Of a DNA stretch of 64,000 nt, positions 12,057 to 59,207 are shown one piece after another. The first letter of the stretch is position 1, and each line of letters starts with the position of its first letter. The notes under the pieces are model-generated. The model had not been told where the DNA came from. It saw nothing but the letters and a program-made list of their open reading frames with translations, and did not search any database. Made by a program: the position numbers and the translations under genes. The DNA is from a virus. The stretch spans positions 1 to 64,000 of the IMG/VR virus record IMGVR_UViG_3300025000_000067; one strand, 5' to 3'.

Positions 12057-12161
12057 GACCTGGGTAGCTCAATGGTAGAGCAACGGCCAGAGTGTACACC
12101 TTTTCCTTAGGGGAAAGCTGGTTAAGCGTGTGTTGAGGTTCGATTCCTTGCCTGGGTCCCA
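12057..12161 (+). ncRNA. tRNA-like element with replaced anticodon arm
   Basis: Acceptor ACCTGGG (12058-12064) pairs with CCTGGGT (12151-12157) using two G-U pairs. G12057 can pair with C12158 as in tRNA-His. CCA is encoded at 12159-12161. The D arm is GCTC-AATGGTA-GAGC and the T arm is TGAGG-TTCGATT-CCTTG. Where a 17-nt anticodon arm is expected there is a segment of about 50 nt folding as GGCCAG/CTGGTT around a CTTTTCC-TTAG-GGGAAAG hairpin. No conventional anticodon loop is seen. It could be a decayed tRNA, a tRNA mimic or part of the larger folded RNA here. Confidence 0.55.
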
Positions 12162-12186: not shown

Positions 12187-12260
12187 AGCGGGATAGAGTA
12201 AAGGTAGCTAGTTAGAGAAATCTTCTAGTGAAGAAGGTTCGATTCCTTCACCCGTGCCTA
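12187..12260 (+). ncRNA. Degenerate second tRNA-like element
   Basis: A T arm GAAGG-TTCGATT-CCTTC (12233-12249) is perfect. An anticodon-like arm TTAGA-GAAATCT-TCTAG has a 7-nt loop but lacks U33. The D arm and acceptor each contain mismatches, and CCTA replaces CCA. It looks like a tRNA pseudogene or a tRNA-shaped domain of a larger RNA. Confidence 0.4.
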
Positions 12261-12261
12261 G

Positions 12262-12475
12262 ACTATAAGGGGAGTGAAGCAAAACCATTCCCTCTTATAT
12301 AGATTAAAGGTAATTCTTTAATCCGCTCCTAGTTACCTTATTAGGTCGCTGAGATGGAGTGAGGTAGGATGAGTAACTGAAGTCTGCGTAAAAGAACCGC
12401 TTCCCTCGATGGTTGCAGACAAGGCGATAAGATAATCGCGGGTAAAACTTGTCTACCCATCCTCCCTACCAAATA
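12262..12475 (+). ncRNA. Densely folded noncoding segment with alternative stems
   Basis: Perfect helices include GATTAAAG/CTTTAATC (12302-12323), AGTTAC/GTAACT (12331-12378), GTCTGC/GCAGAC (12382-12420), GACAAG/CTTGTC (12418-12453) with an inner GCGAT/ATCGC, and GGTAG..GATG with CATC..CTACC (12363-12470). GTCTGC/GCAGAC and GACAAG/CTTGTC share three bases and exclude each other, as in switching RNAs. No reading frame is supported. Confidence 0.5.
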
Positions 12476-12476
12476 A

Positions 12477-12552
12477 TGGCGCGTAACTCAGTGGTTAGAG
12501 TGCCGAGCTTATACCTCGGAAGTCGTTGGTTCAAACCCAACTGCGCCAACCA
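12477..12552 (+). tRNA. tRNA-Ile, anticodon UAU
   Basis: All four arms are regular: acceptor TGGCGCG/TGCGCCA, D arm ACTC-AGTGGTTA-GAGT, anticodon arm CCGAG-CTTATAC-CTCGG and T arm GTTGG-TTCAAAC-CCAAC. Discriminator A and CCA are encoded at 12549-12552. Anticodon UAU reads AUA directly. Most bacteria instead read AUA with a lysidine-modified CAU tRNA, so this phage supplies an unusual decoder for a codon its genes use often. Confidence 0.92.
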
Positions 12553-12859
12553 AAAGGTATAAAGTGCCTCTTGTCAGGTACTTTAGATAAAAAACAGAGA
12601 AAGTGCCTTCAACAATCACTTGCTCTAGGGGTAAAGCCATTAGTAACCCCGCTAGGTTCAGCCTAGCAAATGGCATTCTGAATGAATGATATTATAAATG
12701 CTGAAAAGCGTGATTTTAATACGGCTTCAGAATGCCATTTGGTAGGTTGAAATTTTAGCAGCCTGCGAACGTGCAAAGAGAATCAAGTTTCACGCATTGA
12801 GAAACGAGAATTGAGAAATGAGAGAAGAGAGCACGGCAGTATGAAAGGAGCAAATTTCT
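12553..12859 (+). ncRNA. Folded region downstream of the tRNA
   Basis: Helices are AAAGTGCCT/AGGTACTTT (12561-12584, one G-U), GCTAGG/CCTAGC (12651-12667) and a 16-bp perfect stem CAAATGGCATTCTGAA with its complement (12667-12682 with 12726-12741). A purine-rich leader follows before the next gene. No gene is seen until 12860. It may continue the RNA that begins at 12057. Confidence 0.45.
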
Positions 12860-31714: not shown

Positions 31715-31760
31715 GAAAGAGCCCGTGGTTACCTCAGATGAGGGCCACAGGCTCTTTCTG
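31715..31760. terminator. Bidirectional hairpin/terminator (copy 2)
   Basis: AGAAAGAGCCCGTGG pairs with CCACAGGCTCTTTCT with one mismatch. It lies between convergent genes and resembles the hairpin at 31054. Confidence 0.7.
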
Positions 31761-32642
31761 TTTACCATACCATATAGGCCCCAAGGGATCTTCTGAAGCC
31801 AATTCATTTGATGTAAAGAGCCACTGCAGGTCAGTATTGTCTATTCCATAGATAGCGTTCCTCAGCCTCAGAGCGCGGTCTAGGTTTGTCGTGACTGTTA
31901 GGATAAGGGGGAAGGTTCCATAGATCGATTCAAAGCTTTTAGAGGCATAGTAGGCTGTATAGCGCTGGTGTTTCCTTTGGAAGACCGGTAGGCTCATGGT
32001 TCCATTGTCTAATTCTAGGAAAAAGTGGATACCTTCATCTTCTGAAAACCAATACTGGCCATAAGCATCCGGATTACATACCATCTTCTTCCCCCAGAAG
32101 GTGAAACTATGTCGGGTATGGTTTTCTGTTCTGTACCCGGTAACTTCATGCTTATGTTTTCGAGCATTCCGGAGAAGTGAAATGTAGAAGTTATTGATGT
32201 CTACCATATGCTTAAGGTACGGAAGTCTTGTTTCGTTCATTTCATAGGACCATGATAGTTCTTCTACTTCTTGGTTAAGAAGTCCGGCTACAATCTTGGC
32301 ACCCAGTTTATCAAGGATAATATGGCCTTGGCTTGTTCCTTCATTCCCAATGTCTACAAAGAATCGGTCAACGAGTTGAGCATCAAAAAGTTTTCGGATC
32401 CTTCGTCTTGCAATAAGCTCTGATTGAGAGTTTTCAAGTCCTTTAGAGTTGTATCTGTAGTGCATTTCAGCTATTTGTCTGGTGGTTAAGCAGCGTTGAT
32501 AGTAGATAGATAACAGGACTTCTCTATCCCTTGGCGTTAACATAGGGTTCTGGTAAACTTCTCGTATTGACCGCTCAGTGTCCCCCTGTTTTCTGACGAA
32601 TTTATTAATCCTTCGTGAGGTAATTTGTCTAGTTTCTAGCAT
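31734..32642 (-). CDS. Replication-relaxation family protein
   Basis: The 302-aa protein begins with a winged helix: LTPRDREVLLSIYYQRCLTT, RQIAEMHY, LIARRRIRKLFDAQLVDRF. The second half (RHSFTFWGKKMVCNPDAYGQY, then FFLELDNGTMSLPVFQRKHQRY) matches the replication-relaxation family (PF13814 type). That family is usual on plasmids and integrative elements of Bacillota beside TraG-like ATPases. It is encoded directly after the ATPase gene here. The role is probably control of initiation or of transfer of element DNA. Confidence 0.78.
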   Translation of the reverse strand: MLETRQITSRRINKFVRKQGDTERSIREVYQNPMLTPRDREVLLSIYYQRCLTTRQIAEMHYRYNSKGLENSQSELIARRRIRKLFDAQLVDRFFVDIGNEGTSQGHIILDKLGAKIVAGLLNQEVEELSWSYEMNETRLPYLKHMVDINNFYISLLRNARKHKHEVTGYRTENHTRHSFTFWGKKMVCNPDAYGQYWFSEDEGIHFFLELDNGTMSLPVFQRKHQRYTAYYASKSFESIYGTFPLILTVTTNLDRALRLRNAIYGIDNTDLQWLFTSNELASEDPLGPIWYGKQKEPVALI

Positions 32643-32653
32643 ACCCTATCCTC

Positions 32654-35131
32654 CTACTTAACTCTCTGGATCTTACCTGTGGCCTTCCCAGTCTTTATAG
32701 AAGCACTCTGGTCTTCGGTAATCTGATTCTTTTGGATGGTACTATATCGGGCTTCTATGTCATCTTTTATTTCTGAGATATGCTTATAATTCCTAGTTTT
32801 ATAAGCATCTTTCCATTTCTTAACTTCAGCTAGCCCAACACTAGGAAAGTAGTCATCCATGTTAAGACAATCAAAAGTGAAAGGACTTGGGTGGATCTTT
32901 TTAAACCGTCCGTAGCCTGTATACTGAACCATAGATGTTAGGTCCTCTTCTGTAACTTCCGGCAGCATACGTTTGATTTTAGGTGCTGAAGATGTCCCTA
33001 TGAGTAGGCTCACTTGGGTGAAGGTGTTGTCTTCGATCATGCCCATAAGCTTAGCTGGGATCTGTTCAACGCTTTGATGGGCTAGGACTAAACCTAGGCC
33101 ATAGCTTCTGGCCATTTCTAAGAAACGCTGAATATCAGATTCTTGGTCGAGGAACATCTCAAATTCGTCTAAGATGGCCACATGGGGTATCCGTTTATCG
33201 ACTTCTGTATCCCCTCTACTAAATACCGCTTTACTGATAAAGGCAGTGAATAGGGTTCCGAAGAAGGAGATAATTTCGTTTTCGTTTTTGTCTAGCGCAA
33301 AGTTGACTATAATAATTGCTTTTTCGTCTAACATCTTTCTCCATTTATACAAGTTTGTCTTTTGACACATGCTATACCGCGGTAATTCATTTTGGGTAAT
33401 GACCTCAAGCTTATTAAGGATAGCTTTAGACTCTGCTTGGCGTGCTCTAATCTTCATGCCTTTGTAGCTTTGCCAGTAGCTTAGGACATCCGGAAATTCT
33501 GTGTCATCTTCCATCTTAGCTAGGGTCCAATCTAAATAATCTTCATCTGTGAACATGCGGTAGACTTCTAGTATAGATCCTTCAGGATTTGTGCTTATGA
33601 CTGCAATGAGGGCTCTTCTGAGGATGCTTTGACTGTGCTCCTTAATAGAACCCTCACTATTGAGTTTTAGGAAGACAGAGACGATCATAGTGGCCAGATT
33701 GTAGGTGCTCATACCAGGCTGTATCAGGAAATTAAGAGGTATAAACTGCGCTATGTCCTGAAGGTCAATGTAATGTACCCGGTGCCATTCACTTTTTGGA
33801 AGATGGGCCATTAGTTCATCGGCCACATCTCCTTTAACGTCAAAGAAGGTCAGACCACAGTGTCTTATAATTTGAAGTCCTAAGAACGATAGCCACCAGC
33901 TTTTTCCGCTACCTGTTCCACCAATGCAGTAGACATGTTGCATAAGCATTTTAATATCTTTAAAAGCTAGGTATTTTAGACGACCTCTAAAGTTTGATCT
34001 TCCGAAGACAATAGCTTGGTCTTTCCACGCTTCTTCAATGGTATTGTACTGATAGACTCCATCAGGTACAGGCATTTTTTTAGCCTGCAGTCGTATGATT
34101 CCTGGGATGTTCTTTGCTGGGAAATGGAGGATCGTTGCAAGCTCTGCTGGGGTAACATAGTTTTCAATAGGGTATGTATGAATTCTTCTTGCTGCATAGT
34201 CTTTCAAGAATTGACTTACCCCGTGTTGGTTAAATAATCTTAAATGTCTTTTATAGTATTTTTCTCGGTAGTCAGAGAAGGGTCTAAAACGATTTTTATC
34301 AGTGGCTGGTGCAAAGGAGCTAATAACTGTGGATAAGCGTGCTCGGGCTTTACCGAAGGCATTGTGGCTGCATACGAGACGTATTTCTAAGTCAAAATAA
34401 ATACCGGCTTCTAGTTTCTTTTGAATTGAGTTTAAACTGGTGTTATGGTCTTTTGATCCAGCATTGCCTGTGAGGGTATAGTGTATAGCTCCTAGTAATG
34501 CTTTGGGGGTTTTCATTAGTCCAGTCCATTTAGCATATGGGTAGTGCATGCGACTAGGTCGTTTACCTGTTTTTTTATATATTTCGTAGTGGCTATTGGC
34601 TATGACTAAGGCTCTATAGGGTACAGGTCTTAGGGTAAATTGAACCCATACTTCTTCTTCATCATCTAGGTTTTGCATGGAGGCGCATAAACTAGCTATC
34701 ATATCTGCTCCGATGCGTTCACCGTCTGACTGTAGAAGATTAAAGAGATAATGGCTGTCAAGTTCTAGCGTGGCACAGGCTACGTTTAAGGCATAGAGTC
34801 TTCCGAAGCGTCCGTAATCTTTTTTAGGTGTAATAATTTCTGCTGATTTGTGGATAGAGTTTATATTGCTCTGGATAAAATCTTTTTCTAGATTTTTTGA
34901 AAGCCAAGTGTATAGGTTAATACCTTTATTGGTTCCTTGGAACTCAAAGCTTAACCAGTCATAGGGTTTTTTAGGGTTATATATCGTATAGAGAGAATCA
35001 AATAGACTATTGTACTGAGATGGCTTAAATTCAGAATCTTTTTCAATGAGTATTTGGTATAGGTTCCCATTCTTAGATCCACTGCTTAAGCGTTTTCGGT
35101 GAATAGGGTACATTAGGCTTTTTATGATCAT
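32654..35131 (-). CDS. TraG/VirD4-like ATPase (coupling-protein type)
   Basis: The 825-aa protein has a Walker A CIGGTGSGKSWWLSFLG near 416, FFDVKGD near 443, Walker B HVAILDEFEMFL near 655, and the arginine/Gln region ARSYGLGLVLAHQSVEQIP. These are features of the VirD4/TraG/TrwB and FtsK-like DNA pump family. The first 400 residues are a plasmid-specific domain without clear membrane helices. Two small membrane proteins encoded upstream may anchor it. The likely job is moving DNA or substrate across a membrane or between cells, in a phage context. Confidence 0.82.
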   Translation of the reverse strand: MIIKSLMYPIHRKRLSSGSKNGNLYQILIEKDSEFKPSQYNSLFDSLYTIYNPKKPYDWLSFEFQGTNKGINLYTWLSKNLEKDFIQSNINSIHKSAEIITPKKDYGRFGRLYALNVACATLELDSHYLFNLLQSDGERIGADMIASLCASMQNLDDEEEVWVQFTLRPVPYRALVIANSHYEIYKKTGKRPSRMHYPYAKWTGLMKTPKALLGAIHYTLTGNAGSKDHNTSLNSIQKKLEAGIYFDLEIRLVCSHNAFGKARARLSTVISSFAPATDKNRFRPFSDYREKYYKRHLRLFNQHGVSQFLKDYAARRIHTYPIENYVTPAELATILHFPAKNIPGIIRLQAKKMPVPDGVYQYNTIEEAWKDQAIVFGRSNFRGRLKYLAFKDIKMLMQHVYCIGGTGSGKSWWLSFLGLQIIRHCGLTFFDVKGDVADELMAHLPKSEWHRVHYIDLQDIAQFIPLNFLIQPGMSTYNLATMIVSVFLKLNSEGSIKEHSQSILRRALIAVISTNPEGSILEVYRMFTDEDYLDWTLAKMEDDTEFPDVLSYWQSYKGMKIRARQAESKAILNKLEVITQNELPRYSMCQKTNLYKWRKMLDEKAIIIVNFALDKNENEIISFFGTLFTAFISKAVFSRGDTEVDKRIPHVAILDEFEMFLDQESDIQRFLEMARSYGLGLVLAHQSVEQIPAKLMGMIEDNTFTQVSLLIGTSSAPKIKRMLPEVTEEDLTSMVQYTGYGRFKKIHPSPFTFDCLNMDDYFPSVGLAEVKKWKDAYKTRNYKHISEIKDDIEARYSTIQKNQITEDQSASIKTGKATGKIQRVK

Positions 35132-35367
35132 GCTGTCATACCACCTTTGACTGCTTCTTTAATAATATTCCATAGGAGCTGGCCAAGGTCTGTTATTGCT
35201 TGACCGGAGTGTAAGTAGAGTACTAACGCATCACGTTTTACTTGTAGGGCATAGATAACTAAATTACACATTTTAACTATAAAGATTAAGATTACACCAG
35301 TAAAAACACTACCGAAAGTTATCTTTAATATCCAAGATTCAATCTCGTTATGTGAAGGTATATGCAT
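35128..35367 (-). CDS. Small membrane protein of the transfer-like module (79 aa)
   Basis: The start overlaps no other gene, and its stop overlaps the ATPase start by four bases. One hydrophobic segment, ILKITFGSVFTGVILIFIVKMCNLVIYALQ (split here by position 15-45), is followed by an amphipathic end. It is likely cotranslated with the ATPase and anchors it, as T4SS accessory proteins do; this is inference. Confidence 0.6.
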   Translation of the reverse strand: MHIPSHNEIESWILKITFGSVFTGVILIFIVKMCNLVIYALQVKRDALVLYLHSGQAITDLGQLLWNIIKEAVKGGMTA

Positions 35368-35376
35368 AATATCCTC

Positions 35377-35823
35377 CTAAACGCTAAGTAACGTTTTACA
35401 AGCAGCATAGATATCATTAAATAACCCAATAACTTCATAAAGTATAATTCCACCACCGACAAAGGCAACAAGAGGAATAACATCACCGCGTCCTGTAAAC
35501 TTTAAAAATGAACTTACAACTAAAGTAAAAAAGCCAACAACAAGCATATGGAGTAATATAGCTCCTTTCCCTCCCCAAAAACTTGTAGGTACGACTGTTC
35601 CTGATGTAACAGCTAGCGCTGGGTGCATAAAGTTAAAGAGAGCTGAACCAGGTAGTAGAATATTAAGAGTTGTAAAAGCTATACTAGGTGCTAAAGCAAC
35701 AGCTAGATTAACTATTTTTTGGTGTTTTTTGTACCAACGTATAAAACTTCGATTAATAAATACTAATTCAGAATCTAAATACTTTAATTCAGACAACTTT
35801 CCAATTACTTGTACTTTTTTCAT
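35377..35823 (-). CDS. Multi-pass membrane protein of the transfer-like module (148 aa)
   Basis: Hydrophobic segments lie near 40-60 (VNLAVALAPSIAFTTLNILL), 85-105 (AILLHMLVVGFFTLVVSSFL) and 110-130 (VIPLVAFVGGGIILYEVIGL). A basic N-terminal part (SFIRWYKKHQK) precedes them. Topology recalls VirB2/TrbC- or VirB6-like subunits, but no family match is claimed. It is the first gene of the unit that contains the ATPase. Ribosome binding site AAAGGAAG. Confidence 0.6.
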   Translation of the reverse strand: MKKVQVIGKLSELKYLDSELVFINRSFIRWYKKHQKIVNLAVALAPSIAFTTLNILLPGSALFNFMHPALAVTSGTVVPTSFWGGKGAILLHMLVVGFFTLVVSSFLKFTGRGDVIPLVAFVGGGIILYEVIGLFNDIYAACKTLLSV

Positions 35824-35840
35824 AAGACACTTCCTTTTTA

Positions 35841-35869
35841 GATATACTGTGGTGTATTTTTATGTTAAA
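35841..35869 (-). promoter_or_regulatory. Promoter of the transfer-like module
   Basis: Read on the minus strand: TTTAAC, 17-nt spacer, TATATC. It is well placed before the gene that starts at 35823. Confidence 0.55.
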
Positions 35870-35937
35870 CATTAGATTTACATGCAAGTACCAATAAATT
35901 AAGAAATAGTATCTCAGGTATATCTTTATTGAATAAT

Positions 35938-35986
35938 ACAAAAAGAAATGCTAAGAAGCTTGCTGTCAGCGGTTTCTTAGCATTTT
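35938..35986. terminator. Bidirectional terminator
   Basis: AAAATGCTAAGAA pairs with TTCTTAGCATTTT, with A and T runs on the two sides. It separates the ParM unit from the transfer-like unit. Confidence 0.75.
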
Positions 35987-36080
35987 TATATAGACTAGTT
36001 TATTTCTTTTTTCTATTTTTAATATTTAAATTTACAATTCTCAAAGTGAGGAGGATTTCTTTTTCTCTCTTTTCTTCTTC

Positions 36081-36425
36081 CTACCATATCTTTAGTTGAA
36101 ATCGTTGTTTCCTTGGAAACCAAGAAATCAACTTATCACTCAAAATATGAACAACAGCTCCTAAAGCTATAAACTCAAAAACTACTACACCAAACAATAA
36201 GAAAGGAAAAGCTAACAATAAAATACCAAATAAGCTATGACAATGCCCTCTGTGTTTCATCCATCGACTAAAAATATTATATCGACCCAATGTTGATGTT
36301 CGGAGATCAATATCAGGTAATAGACTTCCAAAAAGAATACAAAAAAACAATAAAGGACTTTGAACTATAAACAACCCAACTACTGATCCTATAATAAGAT
36401 GACCTAAAAAGTTGAATACAATCAC
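36081..36425 (-). CDS. YdjM-like membrane-bound metal-dependent hydrolase (short)
   Basis: The sequence GHLIIGSVVGLF, LFGSLLPDIDLRTSTLGR and MKHRGHCHSLFGILLL follows the YdjM pattern, with His/Asp metal ligands between membrane helices. At 114 aa it is shorter than chromosomal homologues. Some members are induced by DNA damage. It is the last gene of the ParM transcription unit. Confidence 0.7.
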   Translation of the reverse strand: MIVFNFLGHLIIGSVVGLFIVQSPLLFFCILFGSLLPDIDLRTSTLGRYNIFSRWMKHRGHCHSLFGILLLAFPFLLFGVVVFEFIALGAVVHILSDKLISWFPRKQRFQLKIW

Positions 36426-36489
36426 CTTCTCTCTTTTAAGTTGATAAATATAGTATGTTCAATTTCAAGTTCATCTATCCTACCAAATT

Positions 36490-36744
36490 TTAGAATTTAT
36501 TTTTATACAGAATATTAGCTTTTAAAGATCCCTCAGGCTGCTTTTTAACTGTAGGCTCTTCAGGTATTACCCAAGGTTCAGGAGTCTTAGGGACTTCTGG
36601 AATAGCCCTCATCACTGGCGACCCCTTCTCTATCTGCATAGCTTTACGGTAAACCTCTTTAAGTCGTCCGGTCTTATTCTTATACCGCTCCAAATCTCTT
36701 ATAATATCTGCATCATCTGTAGGATGTAACCTAAACCCAGCCAT
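36490..36744 (-). CDS. parR: ParR-like adaptor protein
   Basis: The 84-aa product starts MAGFRLHPTDDADIIRDLERY, then GRLKEVYRKAMQIE. This resembles the ribbon-helix-helix N-terminus of ParR proteins (usually H/N-P-x-DDxDI...L...R...I/V-R-KAL). The C-terminus is Pro-rich and probably binds the actin filament. It follows parM by eight bases, the usual order in type II partition operons. ParR binds the parC repeats and links plasmid DNA to ParM filaments. Confidence 0.7.
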   Translation of the reverse strand: MAGFRLHPTDDADIIRDLERYKNKTGRLKEVYRKAMQIEKGSPVMRAIPEVPKTPEPWVIPEEPTVKKQPEGSLKANILYKNKF

Positions 36745-36752
36745 AGCTTAAA

Positions 36753-37730
36753 TCACCCCTCTGAGAGCTTAAGAAGCCCGTATTTCCGGTAACCATTAGC
36801 ATTTGCAAGCTCTGCATTATCCATAGTAAGGCAAGGTACACCTGTAAACTCAGTAATGTAGTCTGTATAAACATGAGCCCCACCACCACAAAGGATCACC
36901 GCTGAAAACCTTCTGAAGTCTGGTATATGAAGACTAAGCTCATCTTGTAGTGTAGGTAGCCTGACTTCAATAGCCTTTCTAACAAGTTCATGAACCTCTA
37001 CCTTTTTACCACCTAGCTTTAAAAGACCTGTACGTAAGACTCGATCCACTTCCATAGGCTGAGGTAAAAAACTAAATGAGTGTGAGATAAGCTTTCTAAG
37101 TTCTTTTTGTACTTCATGAACTCCTTCCCAGATAGTAAAGGAGTCCTGTGAGAAGGCACCTTCCTCCATTATGCATCCATCCGTTGACTTACCACCTATG
37201 TCAAGGATTAAGAGGTCTTCAGAAGCCAGCTCTGTGTTCCTCTCTTCCCCCTCAGCATCCAGTACAAAGTCAAAAAATGCCCCGGCAGACTGGGGAAGGA
37301 CTAAAGAATCATTGACTTTAACAAGGCGCTGCACAGCATTAAAGCCGAAGTTAAAACCCCCCTTTAACCGTTCAGCAAAAGCTAGCTTAGAAGCTTCACG
37401 CTTATACTCTTCAACCGGTAGGCCAGATACAAGTAAATCAATAATACTAACACCTGTAGATTCTTGGTAGAGTCCTAAAATTGTGAGTAACTTCGGTAGA
37501 TCCGATTCAGAGGACAACCGCTCAGACTTAAAATCAAAAGATCCTTTAGACCCTACGTTCCATGATCCCCCATGCTCCGTTGTAATAAGATATCCTTCTG
37601 AATCATTTAGATCTCCCATAATAACTTCTGAACGCCTTTTGCTAAGTGACGGGCAAGTATCATCCCAGTCTTTTCCTACCCCTTTAAGTTGGACAAAGCC
37701 AAGGTCAGCACCAACTACATTTTTCTTCAT
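36753..37730 (-). CDS. parM: ParM-like actin-family segregation ATPase
   Basis: The 325-aa protein carries the actin-fold nucleotide motifs: VVGADLGFVQLKG at 4-16 (phosphate 1), LILDIGGKSTDGC near 176 (phosphate 2) and VILCGGGAHVYTDYI near 283 (adenosine). These match ParM/Alp-type bacterial actins. Such filaments push replicated plasmids apart. Upstream lie repeats that could be parC, and a ParR-like gene follows. Its presence implies that the phage genome is kept as a low-copy plasmid in lysogeny. Confidence 0.85.
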   Translation of the reverse strand: MKKNVVGADLGFVQLKGVGKDWDDTCPSLSKRRSEVIMGDLNDSEGYLITTEHGGSWNVGSKGSFDFKSERLSSESDLPKLLTILGLYQESTGVSIIDLLVSGLPVEEYKREASKLAFAERLKGGFNFGFNAVQRLVKVNDSLVLPQSAGAFFDFVLDAEGEERNTELASEDLLILDIGGKSTDGCIMEEGAFSQDSFTIWEGVHEVQKELRKLISHSFSFLPQPMEVDRVLRTGLLKLGGKKVEVHELVRKAIEVRLPTLQDELSLHIPDFRRFSAVILCGGGAHVYTDYITEFTGVPCLTMDNAELANANGYRKYGLLKLSEG

Positions 37731-58300: not shown

Positions 58301-58615
58301 ATGAAAATGCGGAAGATTGTGCAGAAAGTTGTACATTTGAAAGAACATAGGGTAGCCGTACTAGCCTATAGAATGTCAGAGGGTTCTGAAGTACAATACC
58401 TGACTGCTATGCCTAAGGAAGGTAGGCGCATGCTCAAGGAGTTTAGAGAAACTGGTAAGTTTACACGATTAAAACCATGGGTAAGCAGAGATGCCTTAGA
58501 AGTTCTAGAGCCTGTGAGTATGACTATGGCATACACAGATGGCTGGTACGCTAAGATTCCTGCAGTCATTGACTATAAGGAGGATGAAACAAATGGATAT
58601 GTACATTGGATTTAA
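58301..58615 (+). CDS. Hypothetical protein (104 aa)
   Basis: ATG 58301 follows AGAGGAGG. The product is basic and beta-rich (KVVHLKEHRVAVLAYRMSEG, PVSMTMAYTDGWYAKIPAVI). Its end overlaps the next gene. Function unknown. Confidence 0.55.
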   Translation: MKMRKIVQKVVHLKEHRVAVLAYRMSEGSEVQYLTAMPKEGRRMLKEFRETGKFTRLKPWVSRDALEVLEPVSMTMAYTDGWYAKIPAVIDYKEDETNGYVHWI

Positions 58616-59207
58616 GATGATCGAGGCAAAGCCTATGACAGCAAAAGAGGCTAGCCTAATACTATTTGATCGGCCAATTAGCACTGAGAACGCTGATGAA
58701 GAAGGTAATGGCTATCTAGTGAAGTATGAAGATGGCTACACCTCATGGTCACCTAAAGCTCAGTTTGAAAAGGCATACACAAAATTTGGGACTAGGAGTG
58801 CCATAGGTGAAGGCCTAGAAATCAAACCGATTGACTCAAGTGTTTGTATAATCAAATTTAAAGAGGACTTCTCACACGAAGAGATTGAGTCATTTAAGAA
58901 AGCATGGAGAACTGCGATGTGTAGTCCAGGATCACCTAAAGTAACAGCGCTCTGTGTGCCAAATACCATAGACATAAAATCCTTAGAGGGGACAACCTTT
59001 GATTTCTCAGTGGCCCTGAAGCTTCTGAAGTTAGGGTATAAGGTCACAAGAACCTACTGGATGGATGGGGATAGTGTGGTTTACTGGCTAGAGCTGGTAG
59101 ATAACGATATTCGAAAAGGCCGGATGTACGCTGGTAACCTAAGCTATTGGGATGATGCAGAGTCGGCAGCTCTGTTAGCTGAAGACTATAAGCTCATGAA
59201 GCGCTAA
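58593..59207 (+). CDS. Two-domain phage protein with DUF2829/Tad2-like C-terminus (204 aa)
   Basis: ATG 58593 follows AAGGAGG at nine bases. The N-terminal part KMIEAKPMTAKEASLILFDR and YLVKYEDGYTSWSPKAQFEK matches a small domain frequent in phages. The C-terminal part TFDFSVALKLLKLGYKVTRT, then WMDGDSVVYWLEL and ALLAEDYKLMK resembles DUF2829, the fold of Tad2. Tad2 is known to sequester the Thoeris signal molecule. Anti-defence function is inferred from this resemblance only; the middle region is unassigned. Confidence 0.5.
   Translation: MDMYIGFKMIEAKPMTAKEASLILFDRPISTENADEEGNGYLVKYEDGYTSWSPKAQFEKAYTKFGTRSAIGEGLEIKPIDSSVCIIKFKEDFSHEEIESFKKAWRTAMCSPGSPKVTALCVPNTIDIKSLEGTTFDFSVALKLLKLGYKVTRTYWMDGDSVVYWLELVDNDIRKGRMYAGNLSYWDDAESAALLAEDYKLMKR

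Follow-up and report, generated by a model that had tools for sequence, protein, structure and literature searches.

The element described here lies on a virus contig of 102,131 bases (IMG/VR record IMGVR_UViG_3300025000_000067), whose first 64,000 nucleotides make up the stretch analysed, hereafter the window. The record is that of a phage-plasmid of Gram-positive bacteria. It encodes an SNF2 helicase, a primase-MCM protein, a family A polymerase, a terminase, a portal, an A118-like holin and an amidase. Relatives of the primase are found mainly in phages and plasmids of Bacillus and Paenibacillus, and also in actinobacterial and Thermus phages. The phage-plasmid is possibly mobilisable: window positions 31737-37730 carry Replic_Relax, T4SS coupling-like and ParM-like actin genes, with phage genes elsewhere in the window. 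A weak match to the Tad2-like Thoeris anti-defence domain, below the curated cut-off, was observed at window positions 58539-59204. No RtcB, which would be a link to phage RNA repair, was found.

The element starts 3 nt downstream of the stop codon of an HTH/excisionase-like ORF that relatives have in common. It is followed, in this order, by a degenerate tRNA-like sequence, a structured stretch and an intact tRNA-Ile (Table 1). In the degenerate sequence the T arm is perfect and the anticodon stem has 5 bp; its loop lacks U33, its acceptor is broken and it has no CCA. Within the structured stretch, window positions 12370-12472 show an acceptor-like AGGTAGG/CCTCCCT pairing that ends in ACCA and encloses inner hairpins, with no canonical T loop. 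No ORF of at least 60 aa overlaps the element, and promoter-like and terminator-like sites around it occur at chance level.

The Rfam tRNA model (RF00005, gathering score 29) matches window positions 12058-12158 on the + strand with 37.1 bits (E 1.3e-7 per 102,131-base record). This is the Infernal-type check suggested with the original prediction, and by this score the tRNA frame lies well beyond chance, whereas the limb structure described below is a prediction. ARAGORN and a scan of the whole window at the gathering score both missed the element and called only the tRNA-Ile(UAU). The acceptor, D and T stems contain 16 pairs, all of them standard and four of them G-U, and the core bases U8, A14, A15, G18, G19, A21, G53, TTCGA and C61 are kept. 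Since G46 is also kept and A15 could form a Levitt pair with U48, the L-shaped core appears complete. The original prediction had described intact arms, an encoded CCA and a G-1:C73-like pair, and all of these are borne out. A C73 facing G-1 is specific to bacterial tRNA-His. The arms and core bases thus place the element among tRNAs, and it shares with bacterial and phage tRNA-His the acceptor, D and T arms, the tertiary core, G-1:C73 and the encoded CCA. It differs from them between positions 27 and 43, where the 5-bp anticodon stem and the 7-nt loop with U33 are absent. There is no canonical loop with a GUG anticodon, and His codons could not be read.

A26 stands between the D arm and position 27, and the outer pairs of the anticodon stem are retained (A27-C28-G29 with C41-G42-U43). 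Inside them, positions 30-40, which are 11 nt in a normal tRNA, are swapped for the 41 nt GCCAGAGTGTACACCTTTTCCTTAGGGGAAAGCTGGTTAAG. In order, this limb consists of GCCAG, a 9-nt 5' bulge (AGTGTACAC), the hairpin CTTTTCC-TTAG-GGGAAAG, CTGGT and the 3' bulge TAAG. When the tRNA core is enforced, it folds as one nested bulged stem-loop (3 bp, 5 bp and the 7-bp hairpin). The rebuilt anticodon arm of the original prediction is real as a replacement, whereas its length of about 50 nt and its separate hairpin are not retained. The core-enforced fold totals -31.2 kcal/mol, against -34.4 for the unconstrained optimum, which is different and not tRNA-like. The stability of the limb is similar to that of dinucleotide shuffles (z about -0.5; 135 out of 500 shuffles are as stable). 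Because a 41-nt limb replaces the anticodon arm, the element should not decode, as had been anticipated, and it is very probably an RNA derived from tRNA-His that has lost this ability.

Table 1. Features of the locus and members of the virus family with extended limbs. Positions are those of the window unless a contig is given.
Feature	Coordinates	Strand	Basis
HTH/excisionase-like ORF, 84 aa	11799-12053	+	
G-1, pairable with C73 (tRNA-His type)	12057	+	sequence
Acceptor 5' strand ACCTGGG, 7/7 paired with 12151-12157, two G-U	12058-12064	+	CM alignment
U8, A9	12065-12066	+	CM alignment
D arm GCTC-AATGGTA-GAGC with A14, A15, G18, G19, A21	12067-12081	+	CM alignment
Positions 27-29, ACG, paired with 12127-12129	12083-12085	+	core-constrained fold
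Replaced limb, 41 nt	12086-12126	+	core-constrained fold
Positions 41-43, CGT	12127-12129	+	core-constrained fold
Variable loop GTGT, 4 nt; U48 can pair with A15	12130-12133	+	sequence
T arm TGAGG-TTCGATT-CCTTG	12134-12150	+	CM alignment
Acceptor 3' strand CCTGGGT, C73, CCA	12151-12161	+	CM alignment
Degenerate tRNA-like sequence after the element, 22.3 bits (cut-off 29)	12187-12257	+	
tRNA-Ile (anticodon UAU), intact, CCA encoded	12477-12552	+	ARAGORN, Rfam scan
Family member in L036	5488-5539	+	
Family member in L068	2570-2622	-	
Family member in L094	2031-2103	-	
Family member in L137	2397-2448	-	
Family member in L291	12370-12421	-	

The locus was found in one other contig, which is identical over 4.5 kb. 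Searches for DNA homologues among phages, plasmids and virus contigs returned matches to the tRNA-Ile or this identical copy only. Contig L002 shares 89% identity as far as the HTH stop codon; the sequence then differs, and the contig ends 188 nt further on. A likeness between window positions 12366-12476 and the slot of L002 was suspected and did not hold on comparison. Five more distant relatives (L024, L025, L030, L275 and L282, HTH identity 48-58%) have a structured intergenic RNA and no tRNA in the slot. Window positions 12652-12757 and the same slot in L024, L025, L030 and L275 contain a structured element, RNA or DNA, which is closed by a long stem and in many cases lies close to a UAGGUUC..GCCUAG or GUUCAG..CUGAAC motif. 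In the relatives examined, this slot lies between the HTH gene and a gene of 240 aa.

We scanned viruses and genomes for tRNA frames in which 45-75 nt separate the D arm from the T arm, and many matches were listed in both. Among those listed, many archaeal ones fit an insert at position 38/39, which was to be expected. A recurrent class in viruses, Lachnospiraceae and Bacteroidia has an insert of 39-48 nt that follows position 28 or 29, and removal of this insert gives a perfect 5-bp arm with U33 (e.g., Asn GUU, Arg UCU, Pro UGG). From their sequences, these short inserts look like compact introns. A preprint on 'type 11 (XI)' tRNA introns may describe this class. One sub-class of the inserts has a common hairpin and C[A/T]GCAA, and the motifs seen across sub-classes are C[A/T]GCAA, GUUCCU or UUACUUC. 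Examples occur in virus contigs L129, L046, L040, L120, L145, L072 and L133 and in genomes L158, L219 and L236.

Among the virus matches listed, 86 are well-formed extended frames, which we classed with a rough scoring rule: a single excision makes 29 canonical, 10 combine a canonical arm with a long variable arm, 2 contain a further T arm, and the remaining 45, among them the identical copy of the element, belong to none of these classes. In L057, L067, L086, L089, L103, L110, L116 and L118, frames were observed that have both a canonical anticodon arm, in most cases UAU, and a class-II-like long variable arm, often with AGAT inside it. Another extended frame, at positions 8919-9017 of L087 (Aeromonas phage Aeh1), is named tRNA-Val in Aeh1 and tRNA-Leu in PX29, and is unannotated in other Aeromonas phages. 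It is one example from a survey which suggests that many virus RNAs with non-canonical limbs are overlooked or mislabelled by standard tRNA finders.

Five virus contigs share frames in which the tRNA core is kept and an extended limb, of which 18 columns are invariant, has GGUGAAGGACCnAAA at its tip (Table 1). Four of them came from the first scan, and L291 was added from a second one. Rfam identifies the member in L137 as tRNA, and nothing matches its limb better. The five frames look like an undescribed family, and they show that a tRNA frame whose limb does not decode can be conserved in viruses. Their architecture resembles that of the element in the tRNA frame, the outer anticodon stem, the 3' bulge, the second stem and the presence of a terminal domain, and the member in L291 also has G-1 and C73-CCA. 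However, the family's terminal domain GGUGAAGGACCnAAA is missing from the element, and a model of the family limb (GGUGAAGGACC) gives no + strand match above 3.3 bits, compared with 49-61 bits for the members.

The element could be a tRNA with a short anticodon-stem intron, its exons possibly degraded: inserts of 39-48 nt after position 28/29 are common in virus contigs, the limb likewise starts once ACG has ended at position 29, and the 3' flank of the limb (TTAAGCGTGTGT) is similar to the flanks of short-insert tRNAs. Yet a perfect arm with U33 is re-formed on excision in those tRNAs and not in the element. When we tried all single excisions exhaustively, with and without a bulge, and compared them with shuffled sequence, the best gave three of five pairs or, with a bulge and without U33, four pairs; 353 of the 400 shuffles did equally well. 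An insert here would also be shorter, at about 31 nt, the C[A/T]GCAA motif is absent from it, and a covariance model of the insert class scores 2.1 bits inside the element and at best 7.5 bits elsewhere, which is no match. Since no excision re-forms the anticodon arm better than in shuffles, we consider an intron of this kind improbable. An intron of the archaeal bulge-helix-bulge type was rejected because the layout offers neither U33 nor a 5-bp stem and because the encoded proteins belong to a Bacillota phage; a group I intron does not fit either, in agreement with the original prediction. It is very improbable that the element is a class II tRNA or has an elongated anticodon arm that still decodes. 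The tip hairpin can be drawn as TTTTC-CTTAGGG-GAAAG, a 5-bp stem and 7-nt loop reading UAG that has the geometry of an anticodon arm, with U33 and G37. However, this hairpin lies 8 bp too far out, and an equally good arm arises in 44 of 300 shuffles. The variable loop of 4 nt confirms that a class II variable arm is not involved, and C73 is unfit for tRNA-Leu. YrlA RNAs carry a tRNA-like domain, and like the element they are small tRNA-shaped RNAs, which makes a Y RNA that binds or gates Ro60 conceivable. The comparison with YrlA that accompanied the original prediction is nevertheless unsupported, because RF02553 has no match to the element at E values up to 10, no TROVE/Ro60 gene is present in the 102-kb record and no separate Y-stem module is seen outside the tRNA core; we regard a Y RNA as highly implausible. 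The tmRNA model (RF00023) does not match the element, nor does any other Rfam family except tRNA.

The weightier question is whether the element has a function or is a pseudogene, and here we judge the balance to be nearly even. In the latter case, a single recent insertion or replacement would have cost an otherwise intact phage tRNA-His gene its anticodon arm and left it functionless, which we see as a substantial possibility, though short of probable. The adjoining tRNA-like sequence is plainly degenerate and relatives manage without a tRNA array; the lack of conserved homologues among phages, plasmids and virus contigs, together with a limb no more structured than random, favours such decay. 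On the other hand, all other positions that matter for tRNA shape, processing and HisRS identity are intact, including the encoded CCA, and, as no single excision restores a normal arm, the limb is more than a simple insertion into one. The alternative, which we prefer tentatively and at slightly less than an even chance, is that the element acts as a processed tRNA-shaped RNA, either as a processing signal or as a substrate of tRNA enzymes. This reading is favoured by the integrity of G-1:C73, CCA and the core beside a visibly decayed neighbour. It is further supported by the absence of an excision that restores a decoding arm better than chance, by the start of the element 3 nt past the HTH stop codon, and by the retention in viruses of tRNA frames whose limbs are non-canonical (the five-member family and 45 of the 86 frames listed). 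It is weakened by the presence of the element in one lineage only, with no sign of selection, by a limb as stable as shuffled sequence and a minimum-energy fold that is not tRNA-like, and by relatives with no tRNA in the slot and promoter- and terminator-like sites at chance level.

Transcription, processing, charging and any use of the element are proposed here from its sequence. The element would derive from a tRNA-His within a small phage tRNA array, and its transcript would probably be continuous with the mRNA of the HTH gene. Cleavage by RNase P at G-1 and trimming to the encoded CCA would then produce an RNA of roughly 105 nt and free the end of the HTH mRNA. With the acceptor, T and D arms and G-1:C73 kept, the RNA could conceivably still be recognised by end-processing enzymes, HisRS or other tRNA-binding proteins. 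Its likeliest use, if it has one, may be as a processing signal or enzyme substrate. A broader interpretation, in which the element is a CCA-ended histidine-acceptor RNA without decoding, a processed mimic (enzyme substrate, sponge or anti-defence factor) that belongs to a broad and largely undescribed virus population, seems unlikely to us. By analogy, the element might possibly be a decoy against host tRNA nucleases, given that such defences are known to be weakened by phage tRNAs and that those with altered anticodon loops resist host anticodon nucleases (PMC10264068; PMC11555353). Both these tRNAs and the element are changed in the part that anticodon nucleases cut, but the nuclease-resistant phage tRNAs have a normal arm and decode, whereas the element has lost decoding. 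The protection that a phage tRNA-Tyr gives against retron-Eco7 is abolished when its anticodon or stems are changed (PMC11555353), which argues against the decoy role.

In the literature covered, which left preprints and most subscription journals outside its scope, we found no description of the element, a tRNA gene whose decoding arm has been replaced. The survey of non-canonical virus frames, with its conserved family and intron-like inserts, may outweigh the element itself. If the proposed role is real, phages make tRNA-shaped RNAs that are selected for processing or charging and not for decoding, and the element would bear on the reason why phages carry tRNAs.
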